Origin: a virus
IMG/VR virus record: IMGVR_UViG_3300042466_000159
Coordinates: 1-29,221 of that record
DNA: 29,221 nucleotides
Strand: one strand, 5' to 3'
Position 1 is the first letter of the stretch. Every line of letters starts with the position of its first letter. Positions 12,931 to 28,836 of this stretch are shown one piece after another. The position numbers and the translations under genes were made by a program. The notes beneath the pieces were generated by a model that searched no databases, was not told where the DNA came from, and saw only the letters and a program-made list of their open reading frames with translations.

Positions 12931-13426
12931 AGAATTTGAAGTTCGCGTTTGGGGCTTTGTTGTCGTAGTCGTGACTTGCATCCTTTGCTTCATTGTCATT
13001 GCACTCTTGTATTCTGTCACCTTCGTGACACAGCCAATCAAGAGCATGGCTCCAATTGACCAAGCCTATACCAAGATGCTGAACGACATTGTTCTGCTGA
13101 TCGTTGGCGGCATCGGCGGAGTTATGACCAAAAGGGCGGCAGGGGCAGTATCTAGGGCGTTCAATCCTGCTCAACAATCGCAACCTATGTGTCACACCTA
13201 CCAAGGACAGGGCGTCGGTTTTGGTATGTCAAACAATTCAGGATATAACCCGCCATCAGCTTATGGGGGTTTGCCGAGTCAGCCGTTCGGGGCGATGCCT
13301 GTATTCACGAATCCGCAACTGGATGAAAACTGGACACCTCCACCGCCTCCAACCACACCCCCAGAGCATCTAGAATCTGATGCCGAGAGGGAACAAATTG
13401 CTATAGCAAGAACTGAGGCTGACTGA
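12896..13426 (+). CDS. two-TM membrane protein with proline-rich tail
   Basis: A 176-residue protein. The first membrane segment is VWGFVVVVVTCILCFIVIAL (about residues 18-42), the second IVLLIVGGIGGVMT (about 65-78), followed by a long soluble tail with a proline run (TPPPPPTTPP) and an acidic helix at the end. It overlaps the lipoprotein gene by 35 bases and the i-spanin gene by one. It could be a second holin-like or pinholin-like protein, as gene order suggests, but the sequence does not decide. Confidence 0.6.
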   Translation: MSNSQKPNLTTEEFEVRVWGFVVVVVTCILCFIVIALLYSVTFVTQPIKSMAPIDQAYTKMLNDIVLLIVGGIGGVMTKRAAGAVSRAFNPAQQSQPMCHTYQGQGVGFGMSNNSGYNPPSAYGGLPSQPFGAMPVFTNPQLDENWTPPPPPTTPPEHLESDAEREQIAIARTEAD

Positions 13427-13926
13427 TGTTTCCAATTCCTTTGCCGTGGATAATCGTTGGTGTAATTATTTCCTTGTTCGGAACTTATCAAGTTGGCCAT
13501 CATTACGGATGGCTTGAGCGCGATAATGACATGAAGATTGCCATTGCAAAAAAGAATGAGGAAGCAAGGGCGACTGAGCAGAAGCTCGGTGAACAACTCA
13601 ATACCAATGCAACAAAGTTACAGGAGGCAACCAATGTCATTAATCAAAAGCAGTCTGCCCTTGATCGCGCTATCCGTTCTGGCAGGGTGCGCATCCCAAC
13701 CGCAAGTTGTCAGCAAGCCGCCTCAAGTCCCGCCATTGCCGCCACAGATAGCAAAGAAACAGGAAGCCAACCTGACGGAAAGACTGACCAAGCTTCTGAT
13801 GCCGAACGAGAAACCCTTATCGCCATCGCAGAAATAGTCGCGCAGGGTGACAGAAATACTTTGCAACTCAACGCTTGCATCGATGCTTACAATGAAGTGA
13901 GGAATCTTTTAAATGGTGAGTCCTGA
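13426..13926 (+). CDS. i-spanin (Rz-like)
   Basis: A 166-residue protein. N-terminal membrane anchor PLPWIIVGVIISLFGTYQVG (about residues 5-24), then a long periplasmic coiled coil with Lys/Glu/Gln heptads (AKKNEEARATEQKLGEQLN, LQEATNVINQKQSALDRAI). This is the standard build of Rz, which reaches across the periplasm to the outer-membrane o-spanin and fuses the membranes in the last lysis step. The o-spanin gene is nested in another frame inside it. Confidence 0.85.
   Translation: MFPIPLPWIIVGVIISLFGTYQVGHHYGWLERDNDMKIAIAKKNEEARATEQKLGEQLNTNATKLQEATNVINQKQSALDRAIRSGRVRIPTASCQQAASSPAIAATDSKETGSQPDGKTDQASDAERETLIAIAEIVAQGDRNTLQLNACIDAYNEVRNLLNGES
13622..13627 (+). promoter_or_regulatory. AGGAGG ribosome-binding site of nested o-spanin
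   Basis: AGGAGG lies six bases before the internal ATG at 13634 and inside the i-spanin reading frame. It fixes the o-spanin start and excludes the longer reading back to 13538. Confidence 0.85.
13634..13837 (+). CDS. o-spanin (Rz1-like lipoprotein), nested in the i-spanin gene
   Basis: A 67-residue lipoprotein read in a different frame and wholly inside the Rz-like gene. The start at 13634 has a perfect AGGAGG (13622-13627) upstream. The signal MSLIKSSLPLIALSVLAGCA ends in the lipobox LAGC with Cys19, and the mature part is proline-rich (KPPQVPPLPPQ), as in Rz1. It is anchored in the outer membrane and pairs with the i-spanin. Confidence 0.88.
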   Translation: MSLIKSSLPLIALSVLAGCASQPQVVSKPPQVPPLPPQIAKKQEANLTERLTKLLMPNEKPLSPSQK

Positions 13927-24874: not shown

Positions 24875-25480
24875 ATGACAAACAAATTGGCAATCAAATA
24901 TAAGGCAACTGAACAGTTGATTCCCTATGCACTCAACAGCCGCACACACTCTGAATCGCAGATTGCACAATTAGCCGCAAGTATCCGTGAGTTCGGGTTC
25001 ACGAATCCTGTCCTATTGGATGGAGAGAATGGCATCTTGGCAGGGCATGGGCGGGTAATGGCGGCAAGATTGTTGAAGTTGGAAAGCGTTCCGACTATTG
25101 AAATTTCACATCTGACAGCAACTCAGAAAAAGGCCTATGTCATTGCTGACAACAAATTGGCTCTGAATGCAGGGTGGGACATGGATATCCTTGGCCTTGA
25201 AATTGAAGAATTGAAAAATTGTGACTTTGAAATTGAATTGCTCGGTTTTGATGAATCAGAACTGGCTAAAAGCGCAATTGATTATTCTGTCCTTGATGAC
25301 GAGGATGTTGATGACAAGATTCAAGACATGGCTGATGGTGTCAGAAAGGCAATACAAATTGAATTTGAGCCTGAACACTATTCAGAGGCGCAAGAACTGG
25401 TCAAATATTGGCGTGGTCAGAACGCTTATGTCGGGTACATGATCTTAGATTTCCTGCGGAAACAAAAAGATAAAGTTTGA
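24875..25480 (+). CDS. ParB-like nuclease-domain protein
   Basis: A 201-residue protein. The N-terminal ParB/sulfiredoxin-like domain has PYALNSRTHSESQIAQLAAS, IREFGFTNPVLLDGENGILA and GHGRVMAARLLKLESVPTIE, including the GHGR motif. ALNSRTHS-type ParB domains in phages are usually fused to or beside DNA methylases. Here the C-terminal 90 residues are an unknown acidic domain (LDDEDVDDKIQDMADGVRKA) instead of a methylase. The gene leads the base-modification cassette and may target or regulate the modification machinery. Confidence 0.82.
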   Translation: MTNKLAIKYKATEQLIPYALNSRTHSESQIAQLAASIREFGFTNPVLLDGENGILAGHGRVMAARLLKLESVPTIEISHLTATQKKAYVIADNKLALNAGWDMDILGLEIEELKNCDFEIELLGFDESELAKSAIDYSVLDDEDVDDKIQDMADGVRKAIQIEFEPEHYSEAQELVKYWRGQNAYVGYMILDFLRKQKDKV

Positions 25481-25481
25481 A

Positions 25482-26003
25482 ATGAAAATCTTTGTAACCA
25501 TTGGCGGCTCTGGCACAAGGATGAAGGAAATCAGTCCTGTTGATAAACAATTTATTTATTACAGGGACAAACGCATCATTGAGCATATCTTTAAGATTTT
25601 CCCTTATGCAAATCTGCTAGGTAACGCAAAAACAAACAGCAGGAAAGATACGCTGACAGAAATAGCGCATGAGCAAGATTGCTTGATTGTTGACTGTGAC
25701 ATCATCCCGTTTGGTTTGCCAGAATTGAATTTTGATGGCGACACACTATTTTTCTTCAATAGCGAGAAGCCTAAATACGGCTCAATTCTGATTGAGGATT
25801 CAAGATTGATTGCTGTGAATGAAAAAGACAACATTTCAAAAAATAAATGTAGTGGAATTTATTTCGTCAAATCCATGTCTAATTTATTAGACAACATGAG
25901 AGATGTGAACAGTTTGGCATCAGGAATGATTGGCGCGAAAGTTATCCAAGAAAACACATTTATCAAATTAGGTGATGTGGAAGATTATTACGAGGCACTA
26001 TGA
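25482..26003 (+). CDS. short nucleotidyltransferase (sugar-1-phosphate / LicC-like)
   Basis: A 173-residue protein with the GT-A nucleotidyltransferase signature FVTIGGSGTRM (residues 4-14), the following basic residue in PVDKQF (Lys22), a metal-binding VDCD (Asp71, Asp73), SGIYFVKSMSNLL and an ending GDVEDYYEAL, as in RmlA/GlmU/LicC enzymes. It would activate a phosphorylated sugar or alcohol with an NTP. It is shorter than bacterial relatives (about 230-290 residues) and has no C-terminal extension. It overlaps the HAD-kinase gene by four bases. Confidence 0.75.
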   Translation: MKIFVTIGGSGTRMKEISPVDKQFIYYRDKRIIEHIFKIFPYANLLGNAKTNSRKDTLTEIAHEQDCLIVDCDIIPFGLPELNFDGDTLFFFNSEKPKYGSILIEDSRLIAVNEKDNISKNKCSGIYFVKSMSNLLDNMRDVNSLASGMIGAKVIQENTFIKLGDVEDYYEAL

Positions 26004-26938
26004 TCGTTGTTGTTGATTTTGATGGGACATTGGCAATTGGAAATACGCGCATCATGGACAGGATGCCTAATCTTGCGTTGATAAAACGCTTGCAGGATTT
26101 GAAAAGCACAATCAATCCAACAATCAAAATTGTGACAGCGCGTGGCTCAAGATTCGGTTTGTCAGAGAGTCAAAAGATTGAAAAATATCATAAAGATATT
26201 CAAACTTGGCTCAATTTGCACAATGTTCCGCATGATTGCATTTCTTTCAACAAAGAATATGGCGCGATCTACATTGATGACATGACTGTAAGCCAAGACG
26301 CTGATTTTACAAGCCTATTGAGTCCTTTCACAAAAAATAAGCTAATCTTCACAGACAGCACAGTAATCAAGAAAACAAAAAACGCAGAATTGGAATACGC
26401 TTGGTATCAGGCGGCAGATAGCATCGTGCAGACACCGAGAATATTATTCTGCAACGATGAGATGATCATTCTTGAAAGAGTGAAAGAACACAAGAAGCCA
26501 ACAGCGCATGAAATTATTGATTTGATTGAGTCGTACAAGAATAAATCAATTAAAAATTATTCTTTTGACAGCTACAAACGGAATTTGCCAAGAATTGAAT
26601 ACGCGACAGCCAAAGTGCAGACCATCATTGATGGGTTAGAAGAACATGAATCATCTTTCTTTCATGGCGATCTTTCAACAACTAATATTCTTGTCCAAGA
26701 CAATAAATTATTTTGCATCGATCCGAACTACAAAGGTATTTTTGGAAGCTATCTGACGGATGCAGGGAAGGCTTTTTTCAGTTTGCTTGCATACGAGCAA
26801 AGTTATTCACAGGCAAAAATAATTTCAGATAAGTATGGCCAAGATGTAATCAGATATGCCATTGCAGAAGGATTGCGGGTTTGCAAATACAACAGCAAAT
26901 ACATTTCTGTTGTTAACAACATGACGGATTTGATATGA
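26000..26938 (+). CDS. HAD phosphatase fused to a choline/aminoglycoside-type kinase
   Basis: A 312-residue two-domain protein. Residues 1-110 are a HAD domain: VVVDFDGTL with Asp6 and Asp8, VTARG (Thr46) and YIDD (91-94). Residues about 115-312 form a small kinase domain: HGDLSTTNILV (222-232) is the catalytic loop with Asp224 and Asn229, and CIDPN (239-243) takes the metal-binding Asp position. The domain is compact compared with typical APH or LicA enzymes, and its nucleotide-binding lobe is poorly defined (KKTKNAELEYAWYQAAD). With the flanking nucleotidyltransferase it suggests making an activated donor molecule. Confidence 0.75.
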   Translation: MIVVVDFDGTLAIGNTRIMDRMPNLALIKRLQDLKSTINPTIKIVTARGSRFGLSESQKIEKYHKDIQTWLNLHNVPHDCISFNKEYGAIYIDDMTVSQDADFTSLLSPFTKNKLIFTDSTVIKKTKNAELEYAWYQAADSIVQTPRILFCNDEMIILERVKEHKKPTAHEIIDLIESYKNKSIKNYSFDSYKRNLPRIEYATAKVQTIIDGLEEHESSFFHGDLSTTNILVQDNKLFCIDPNYKGIFGSYLTDAGKAFFSLLAYEQSYSQAKIISDKYGQDVIRYAIAEGLRVCKYNSKYISVVNNMTDLI

Positions 26939-27663
26939 AGATTGCAATACCAACTCATCGGAGATCAGATTCAATAAACAAACTTACTTTGAGTTTGCTA
27001 TCTGATTTCGATAAGAAAGATATTTATTTATTCATAAGCGATGAGCAAGATATGGCTCTTTATAAGCAAATTTGCCCAGAGTACAACCTTGTTATGTGCC
27101 AAACAGATAACGCAACTGATAAATTTAATTACATTCAAAATTATTTCGATGTCGGAGTTTTTGTAATTGTCATTGAAGATGACATCAAGCAGATACAGTC
27201 TTTGATGACAAAGGATTTGAAGAAGCTGTTTGGATTCATAACAAATTATTGCAATAATAAACAAATCAATTCTTTTGGTGTCTATCCAAGCTCAAACAAA
27301 TTTTTTATGAGCAAGACAATCGATATAGGTGCAACATACATTGTTGCTAATCTTTTTGGCTTCAAATCAACCAAAGACCATAGGGTTCTGTGCCAATTGA
27401 AAACAAAGACGGACTATGAGAGAAGCGTAAAGTTTTATAAGCACATGGGAAATATTGCGCGTTTCAATTTCATATCTTGCCTGACAAACAACTACACCAA
27501 TAAAGGCGGTATGCAAGAGATCGCAGATAGAGCAACCCTTGAAAGACAAGCCTCTCTGATGCTTTGTAAGTTATATCCCGATATTTTTTCTATCAATGAG
27601 AATAGAAAATCTAAATACACAGAGATTCAAATGGCCAAGAATGTTGTGAAAGAACAGTTATGA
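26935..27663 (+). CDS. GT-A-like glycosyltransferase, candidate TET-associated type
   Basis: A 242-residue protein. The start MKIAIPTHRRSDSINKLTLS, the strand DIYLFISDEQDMALYKQIC and the acidic motif VIVIEDDIKQIQ (Glu81-Asp82-Asp83 in the usual DXD place) fit a GT-A fold. The IPTHRR opening and the neighbouring dioxygenase resemble glycosyltransferases described next to TET/JBP enzymes in phages. It would transfer the donor group to a hydroxymethylated base in DNA. Two sampled 60-base stretches have only 16 and 18 G/C, far below the dioxygenase gene. Overlaps both neighbours by four bases. Confidence 0.65.
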   Translation: MKIAIPTHRRSDSINKLTLSLLSDFDKKDIYLFISDEQDMALYKQICPEYNLVMCQTDNATDKFNYIQNYFDVGVFVIVIEDDIKQIQSLMTKDLKKLFGFITNYCNNKQINSFGVYPSSNKFFMSKTIDIGATYIVANLFGFKSTKDHRVLCQLKTKTDYERSVKFYKHMGNIARFNFISCLTNNYTNKGGMQEIADRATLERQASLMLCKLYPDIFSINENRKSKYTEIQMAKNVVKEQL

Positions 27664-28457
27664 ACTATGTGGAACTCAAACAGGTCAAGCACAGCATAAA
27701 GATTGGCGATGTATGCGGTGATATTGAGCCAAATGTCACAGAGGACACAATATTTCTGTCAGACGATAAGATTGTTGGCTTCTACATCAAAGAGATGACA
27801 GGGCGTGTCAAACAGCTTGCTGATGTTGCCAATGCTGAATTCCTATCTGAGAGAGTGCCAAAGTCTTTCATGGACAGGAAGAAGCCAATGGGTCAAGATG
27901 AGAATGGCAAGAACAAGTACCAGATCATTCGGCAATACAGCACAATACTTGGATCAATAGCACCCAAGCCACATATGAAGAGGGTGTATCCTGCGATCTC
28001 TAGCGTACATCAGGTTAAGTCAGCGCAGACATTTGTCAAAGCCATGCTCCTGCTATGCAAAGAATCTGAGAAGCTCATGCAAGAGATCGCTCCTGAGCTT
28101 TATGAAACGCAGAAAAGAATCATCACAGAACAAGTCCCGCCTGAATTCCGCTTTGGAGAGTTGTTCACATCAAGTATCAGCAACTTCAATATCTCCGCAC
28201 CTTTCCACAGAGATGCCGCTAATCTAGAAGGATGCGTCAATGTGATTATTGCCAAGAAGAAGAACGCTAGAGGCGGCAATACAACTGTTCCTGACTATGG
28301 GGCAACTGTTGACAGCAGGGACAATTCAATGTTGGTGTATCCTGCATGGCGTAATGTGCATGGAGTAACACCAATCCATCCGATAATAGAAGGTGGATAC
28401 AGGAACTCTTTGGTCTTCTATCCACTCAAAGCATTTGCCAACCATTGGAAACAATAG
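27660..28457 (+). CDS. TET/JBP-type 2-oxoglutarate/Fe(II) dioxygenase
   Basis: A 265-residue protein. The Fe(II) ligands are HRD (His183, Asp185) and the distal His234 in WRNVHGV. Arg248 in YRNSLVFY is placed to bind 2-oxoglutarate. Between them lie NVIIAKKKNARGGNTTVPDY and SMLVYPAW, as expected for the double-stranded beta-helix. The N-terminal part (KIVGFYIKEM, AEFLSERVPKSFMDR) resembles phage members of the TET/JBP group, which hydroxylate the methyl of thymine or 5-methylcytosine in DNA. The last gene of the cassette, with higher GC than the three genes before it. Confidence 0.82.
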   Translation: MNYVELKQVKHSIKIGDVCGDIEPNVTEDTIFLSDDKIVGFYIKEMTGRVKQLADVANAEFLSERVPKSFMDRKKPMGQDENGKNKYQIIRQYSTILGSIAPKPHMKRVYPAISSVHQVKSAQTFVKAMLLLCKESEKLMQEIAPELYETQKRIITEQVPPEFRFGELFTSSISNFNISAPFHRDAANLEGCVNVIIAKKKNARGGNTTVPDYGATVDSRDNSMLVYPAWRNVHGVTPIHPIIEGGYRNSLVFYPLKAFANHWKQ

Positions 28458-28464
28458 GCTAAAG

Positions 28465-28836
28465 ATGGATTATGTTGACTTCTTTGCCCTACAAGAGGGT
28501 GAGCACAAGATAGATGCAAGACTAAAGAATTGGTCTGTGTATGTCCGACCTCGCAGGGGCTATGGGTCAGTACATCCAATGTTCCGTTGGTATCGTCCGA
28601 CAGAAGTATGGAATGGCAATCCGAACAGCTTTTCCCTTGATTTGCCTGATGCCGAGCTACTTGAGGGGGCAATGCGTCATCTGTCCAATGTGAATAGAAT
28701 CGCAATCAAATGGTTCTATGTTGAGAACACATCGCCAACTAAAGTATGCAAAATATTAGATATCAACCTACATACATTAAAAAATTATGTAAGTAGTGGT
28801 AGAAAACAGTTGCAAAGTTATGTGGAAGTGATCTAG
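28465..28836 (+). CDS. sigma-region-4-like / antiterminator-type late regulator
   Basis: A 123-residue protein from the ATG at 28465. IDARLKNWSVYVRPRRGYGS and RWYRPTEVW are followed by a region-4-like helix-turn-helix: NRIAIKWFYVENTSPTKVCK and ILDINLHTLKNYVSSGRKQL. Proteins of this plan sit just before terminase genes in many phages and are taken to control late transcription, in the place of lambda Q or RinA. It could explain how the late transcript passes the hairpins at 1906 and 11782. Confidence 0.68.
   Translation: MDYVDFFALQEGEHKIDARLKNWSVYVRPRRGYGSVHPMFRWYRPTEVWNGNPNSFSLDLPDAELLEGAMRHLSNVNRIAIKWFYVENTSPTKVCKILDINLHTLKNYVSSGRKQLQSYVEVI

Follow-up and report, generated by a model that had tools for sequence, protein, structure and literature searches.

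The window, by which we mean the whole 29,221-nucleotide stretch of viral DNA that was analyzed, contains tail, lysis, and recombination genes around the gene described here, and near-identical viral contigs are present in IMG/VR, in agreement with the earlier placement of this gene in a phage. With respect to phage kinship, the tape-measure protein gave nothing stronger than weak hits of partial coverage, with 27% identity over 24%. At 13538-13837 an Rz1-like lipoprotein frame is fully nested, in another frame, within an Rz-like spanin gene (13426-13926), and this pair adjoins a glycoside-hydrolase-like endolysin in the classic arrangement. The gene of interest is the third in a cassette of five.

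24875-25480, plus strand: ParB-like N-terminal-domain protein of 201 aa, first gene of the cassette (phrog_15396, phrog_620, and Pfam ParB_N)
25482-26003, plus strand: short RmlA-fold nucleotidyltransferase of 173 aa (AlphaFold, Foldseek, and motifs)
26000-26938, plus strand: predicted bifunctional HAD phosphatase-APH-fold kinase of 312 aa with an ATG start (motifs, profiles, and model)
26935-27663, plus strand: TET-associated glycosyltransferase (TAGT) of 242 aa (PF20691 and phrog_842)
27660-28457, plus strand: TET/JBP 2-oxoglutarate/Fe(II) oxygenase of 265 aa (PF12851 and HxD...H motif)

Overlaps of 4 nt join the last four genes, including those between the HAD-kinase gene and both of its neighbors, and the cassette has the sequence layout of an operon. 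The reading frame at 26000-26938 is a real gene and not a chance product. Purifying selection is seen across the nucleotidyltransferase, HAD, and kinase segments, with dN/dS of 0.06-0.16 in four comparisons; for the HAD and kinase halves the values were 0.07-0.16. The HAD-kinase protein has the following domains and catalytic positions.

26000-26323, plus strand: HAD phosphatase domain, residues 1-108 (TIGR01689, invariant residues, and match to the RB69-type profile)
26015-26023, plus strand: HAD motif I, D6xD8, invariant in the homolog alignment
26135-26137, plus strand: HAD motif II, T46, invariant in the homolog alignment
26252-26254, plus strand: HAD K85, invariant in the homolog alignment
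26276-26281, plus strand: HAD D93/D94, invariant in the homolog alignment
26324-26935, plus strand: APH-fold kinase domain, residues 109-312 (Foldseek matches to MTR kinase, LicA, APH, and FN3K, and match to the RB69-type profile)
26369-26371, plus strand: kinase K124, invariant in the homolog alignment
26663-26686, plus strand: kinase motif HGDLSTTN
26717-26725, plus strand: kinase motif IDP

All of the HAD superfamily motifs I-IV (DxD, T, K, and DD) are present in the N-terminal half, and residues D6, D8, T46, K85, D93, and D94 show no variation in an alignment of 23 homologs. The N-terminal half matches the NCBIfam EcbF-BcbF model TIGR01689 with 39 bits (E = 6.7e-10), short of the curated cut-off of 162 bits, and is by its sequence a remote EcbF/BcbF relative and not a member under the curated rule. 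A literature search on EcbF/BcbF biochemistry turned up nothing useful. The fold of this half was assigned from profile matches to solved structures, the HAD family profile matching PDB 1xpj (E = 9e-19) and PDB 9iqw, which is named 'capsule biosynthesis protein' (E = 4e-8).

The C-terminal half contains the APH-fold catalytic set of HGDxxxxN, IDP, and an upstream lysine. Residues K124, H222, G223, D224, and D241 do not vary among the 23 aligned homologs, and N229 hardly varies. Matches to NCBIfam Bud32 TIGR03724 (E = 2.8e-6) and Pfam RIO1 (E = 3e-4) lie under the family cut-offs, as does that to Pfam PF01636 (13.2 bits, E = 0.077; cut-off 23.2 bits). An AlphaFold model of the whole fusion, built from a 23-sequence alignment, had a pLDDT of 93.3 and a pTM of 0.85. 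Foldseek searches with the kinase part of the model matched many APH-fold kinases with E values of 3e-7 to 1e-5. The top solved match was 5-methylthioribose kinase (PDB 2pyw, E = 3e-7), an anomeric furanose kinase, and further close matches were LicA (PDB 4r7b), PDB 3dxq, and aminoglycoside kinases. The C-terminal half is, on the modeled structure, an APH-fold small-molecule kinase; we know of no member of its clade with known biochemistry. Profiles, invariant residues, and the confident model thus agree with the earlier note that an HAD phosphatase is fused to a kinase. The active-site motifs named there are present, and the kinase fold is retained in the structure prediction, with APH-fold kinases as the nearest solved structures.

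The nucleotidyltransferase carries an RmlA-type motif pattern (GGxGxR ... DxD), with GGSGTR at residue 8, DCDI at residue 71, CSGIY at residue 123, and LGDVEDY at residue 163. It scores 14.8 bits against Pfam NTP_transf_3, under the 27-bit cut-off. Its AlphaFold model (pLDDT 89.9, pTM 0.87) has RmlA glucose-1-phosphate thymidylyltransferases as top Foldseek matches, with E values down to 2.7e-11. The TAGT protein passes the PF20691 cut-off (30.2 bits; cut-off 27.5) and matches phrog_842, β-glucosyl-HMC-α-glucosyltransferase, with E = 6e-8. In phages T2 and T6, TAGT puts glucose on already glucosylated cytosine (PMC13216743; PMC13390438). The oxygenase likewise passes the PF12851 cut-off (40.3 bits; cut-off 34.9), and its HxD...H motif comprises HRD at residues 183-185 and the distal histidine in VHGV at residues 233-236. 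The ParB-like protein matches phrog_15396 and phrog_620 with E values down to 2.5e-54 and Pfam ParB_N at E = 1.6e-4, under the cut-off. Because TAGT and TET, two neighbors absent from the earlier note, adjoin the HAD-kinase gene, the most probable reading of the locus is a cassette for DNA base hypermodification that brings its own donor-sugar module. PADLOC found no anti-phage defense match for four cassette proteins. Directly behind the TET gene lies a small protein (28393-28836) with a weak match to sigma-70 region 4, and a similar gene stands behind TET in another record (L008); this protein is a possible regulator of the cassette operon or of late genes.

The five-part set recurs in phage relatives, in the window order in two of them (L009, L025) and in another gene order in three (L027-L029). 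A ParB-like gene likewise opens the cassette in L009, L025, L027, and L028. In cyanophage S-CBWM1 (L002) the TET, TAGT, HAD, nucleotidyltransferase, and kinase are five neighboring separate genes, and no adjacent ParB was seen. Beside TET or thymidylate-synthase-type base modifiers the trio of HAD, kinase, and nucleotidyltransferase occurs as separate genes, as an HAD-kinase, as a nucleotidyltransferase-kinase, and as a three-domain protein, a recurrence that is established at the level of gene content. In Agathobaculum phage AB434P2, beside an annotated deoxyuridylate hydroxymethyltransferase, and in L038, beside a TAGT relative, the HAD-kinase is accompanied by an RfaE/TagD-like nucleotidyltransferase. 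A lone HAD and a nucleotidyltransferase-kinase fusion lie near TET or a thymidylate-synthase-family enzyme in four records (L040, L041, L042, and L054). The three-domain form, nucleotidyltransferase-HAD-kinase in a single chain of 601 aa, is encoded on a 192-kb viral contig (L056:5182-6984) and is, judged by its domains, a one-chain version of the pathway. Such swapped fusions are strong evidence, at the level of domain architecture, that the three activities belong to a single pathway. Many relatives that carry both a nucleotidyltransferase and an HAD-kinase have them among general glycosyltransferase genes, on contigs without TET or thymidylate synthase. The donor is therefore not used for DNA only, and the module resembles a general-purpose source of sugar that has been recruited here to DNA.

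Relatives outside phages bear on the substrate. A scan of cellular genomes gave only two relatives of the HAD, in polysaccharide-type loci of Levilactobacillus and Nitrosopelagicus. The search of capsule loci proposed earlier thus recovered the module; the fusion in both of these loci joins the kinase to the nucleotidyltransferase, and the idea that HAD and kinase are directly fused in capsule loci of cells was rejected. Using the Levilactobacillus nucleotidyltransferase-kinase as the query against 399 Bacillota genomes, we obtained four non-self matches, all of which carry a KpsF/GutQ-type SIS sugar-phosphate isomerase; in L081 and L082 it follows the kinase in the same chain, and in L079 and L080 it is encoded by the adjacent gene. 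An HAD gene is adjacent in two of the four (L079, L082). L018, a close HAD-kinase relative of the window protein, also has a GmhA-like isomerase on its contig. This linkage of fused or adjacent isomerases is established in the relatives and points to an aldose phosphate as the substrate. No SIS sugar-phosphate isomerase was found in the window or in its TET-cassette relatives, records that may be fragments; if they are complete, the host has to supply the sugar phosphate.

We consider it likely that the phage encodes an NDP-sugar pathway supplying the glycosylation of DNA bases, in which the fusion relocates the phosphate. The starting compound would be an aldose n-phosphate drawn from host metabolism. 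The tail phosphate would be taken off by the HAD domain and a phosphate added at the anomeric C1 by the APH-fold kinase, in either order, giving an aldose 1-phosphate that the RmlA-fold nucleotidyltransferase would convert to an NDP-sugar. The TET/JBP oxygenase would make hydroxymethyl-pyrimidine in the phage DNA, TAGT would move the sugar from the NDP-sugar onto this base, and the ParB-like protein may bind or target DNA. What we infer in this scheme is that phosphorylation is anomeric, the order of the steps, which sugar and which base are involved, that the sugar is transferred to DNA, and that the modification protects against host nucleases. The channeled bis-phosphorylated intermediate suggested earlier would belong to only one of the two possible orders of the HAD and kinase steps.

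No PF00145 C5-methyltransferase was found in the window or in its TET-cassette relatives, nor in S-CBWM1, Cr30 (L014), MED4-184 (L015), Rich, Bumble, CloverMinnie, or Kozie (L083-L086), the last four being actinobacteriophages with TET or TAGT genes. These TETs may thus oxidize either 5-methylcytosine made by the host or thymine. A fuller version of the proposal, which we put forward as tentative, builds on the absence of this enzyme from the window and from these seven TET/TAGT phage genomes: in it, a dedicated NDP-sugar unavailable in the host is produced by a one-chain, ATP-driven, irreversible phosphate shifter and a minimal nucleotidyltransferase, which feed TAGT in TET-initiated hypermodification of a base that may be thymine, giving a base J-like sugar-hydroxymethyluracil, and not 5-methylcytosine.

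A likeness to the choline LicA/LicC pair, also raised in the earlier note, has become less likely. In such a route the kinase would act on choline, ethanolamine, or a polyol, a CDP-alcohol would be made, and the phospho-alcohol would be transferred to the base. The top kinase fold matches do include LicA and a protein of the choline/ethanolamine kinase family, the window nucleotidyltransferase weakly matches IspD and ribitol-5-P cytidylyltransferase, and the nucleotidyltransferase of some relatives also resembles glycerol-3-phosphate cytidylyltransferase (TIGR01518). However, the kinase fold matches include sugar and aminoglycoside kinases besides LicA, and the nucleotidyltransferase is RmlA-like, its fold matches being sugar-1-phosphate enzymes. 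Among the HIGH-type nucleotidyltransferases of relatives, heptose-1-P adenylyltransferase is the best match for three of the four tested. The partner of the fusion is the TAGT glycosyltransferase, sugar-phosphate isomerases are fused or adjacent in relatives, and a LicA/LicC route does not need a phosphatase. We therefore regard this route as unlikely.

It is distinctly improbable that the NDP-sugar made by the trio is destined for a glycan of the surface or the virion (host lipopolysaccharide, capsule, or the phage particle) and that the TAGT/TET neighborhood is a mobile-gene coincidence. The operon overlaps of 4 nt with TAGT and TET, together with the recurrence of the set with TET and TAGT in diverged phages and in varied gene order, argue against this reading, although several large-phage relatives have glycosyltransferases and sugar epimerases around the nucleotidyltransferase and HAD-kinase and lack TET in their records, and the cellular relatives are in polysaccharide-type loci. 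An end-healing, Pnkp-like polynucleotide kinase-phosphatase acting on nucleic acid ends is highly improbable, and this identity was rejected: HAD and kinase do share one chain and the HAD half weakly matches the polynucleotide kinase phrog_415 (E = 0.004), but the kinase has the wrong fold, being APH-type with HGDxxxxN/IDP and not P-loop, and the linked genes encode a nucleotidyltransferase and a glycosyltransferase.

Returning to an NDP-sugar pathway for DNA, we conclude that the virus probably produces a special sugar of its own, with which it disguises its DNA. If this is true, some TET phages carry their own sugar-donor pathway and do not merely borrow host UDP-glucose, and TET/TAGT cassettes could install rarer sugars unseen by host type IV restriction enzymes and DNA glycosylases. 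The HAD-kinase fusion would then be a compact enzyme for sugar-1-phosphate production.

Among known systems, phage ParB-TET-TAGT cassettes (in Gordonia phage CloverMinnie, mycobacteriophage Rich, and others) have TET and/or TAGT near the genome start, and in CloverMinnie TET/TAGT adjoins ParB. The cassettes examined have no adjacent HAD-kinase or nucleotidyltransferase, and the neighbors are annotated as adenylate kinase, deacetylase, and terminase. GDP/ADP-heptose synthesis (GmhA, HddA or HldE kinase, GmhB HAD, and HddC or HldE nucleotidyltransferase) has the same four activity types, and relatives of the window genes carry GmhA-like and RfaE-domain-II-like members. The analogy drawn earlier between this pathway and a kinase, phosphatase, and nucleotidyltransferase trio gains support from the KpsF/GutQ, GmhA-like, and RfaE-domain-II-like homologs, and the earlier interpretation as a whole is partly supported. 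In heptose synthesis the kinase acts first; HddA is a GHMP kinase and HldE a PfkB-type kinase. The GDP-heptose pathway (HddA/GmhB/HddC) thus differs from the window in having a GHMP-type kinase in place of an APH-fold one.

Of the characterized trios with these enzyme classes, MupP-AmgK-MurU is the closest; its AmgK is an APH-fold kinase. In Pseudomonas this phosphatase-first route leads from MurNAc-6-P through MurNAc and MurNAc-1-P to UDP-MurNAc, so that an HAD phosphatase, an anomeric kinase, and a nucleotidyltransferase shift phosphate from C6 to C1 and activate the sugar (PMC5371407). It differs in consisting of three separate proteins, in that MupP is a Gph-like HAD_2 protein and not of EcbF/BcbF type, and in serving peptidoglycan recycling and not DNA.

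DNA of phage RB69 (Mosigvirus) carries arabinose (PMC6024577; glycosylated DNA is also covered in PMC13390438). The RB69 module comprises genes 51 (HAD), 52 (kinase), 53 (nucleotidyltransferase), and 55 (arabinose-5-phosphate-isomerase-like); by sequence, gene 51 encodes an HAD and gene 52 a kinase of the APH type. Comparison of window-type and RB69-type profiles with hhalign gave 99.9% (E = 3e-34) for the HAD, 98.6% (E = 9e-16) for the kinase, and 98.4% (E = 1.1e-14) for the nucleotidyltransferase, whereas all nine mismatched domain pairs in this profile-profile comparison were below 1%. All three domains are therefore homologous, and a DNA base-modifying set stands beside both modules. At the level of sequence, the same kind of pathway in the window and RB69 is supported, and some of its steps in RB69 may already be proven in the literature. 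The two modules differ in that the window HAD is fused to the kinase, the window nucleotidyltransferase has only 173 aa, and RB69 has an isomerase gene where the window record has none. The window base is predicted to be oxidized by TET, whereas the RB69 base comes from a thymidylate-synthase-family enzyme. The kinases also belong to different clades, forming two separate, long-branched groups in the kinase tree, and the window sugar therefore need not be arabinose.

A glycosyltransferase assay of Shewanella phage Thanatos TH1_060, a homolog of RB69 ORF53_52, was without result (PMC12838424). The gene-52 half (RB69 gene 52, L013:4595-5635) is an APH-type kinase by profile (HGDPNFSN, IDPRG), and a sugar kinase/nucleotidyltransferase assay would fit TH1_060 better. 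EcbF/BcbF-type HADs are labeled 'phosphoheptose isomerase' in RB69 gene 51 (L013:4209-4595), NC_055907 (Enterococcus phage 9183), and phrog_1238; on phage HADs this label looks like a naming error that has been carried over. The RB69 and Thanatos donor genes gain a testable reading, in which an HAD, an APH-type kinase, and a nucleotidyltransferase would act in series after an isomerase. The parts of the window cassette are of known kinds; a cassette with its own sugar supply is unusual and is a variation on the known TET/TAGT and RB69-type systems.
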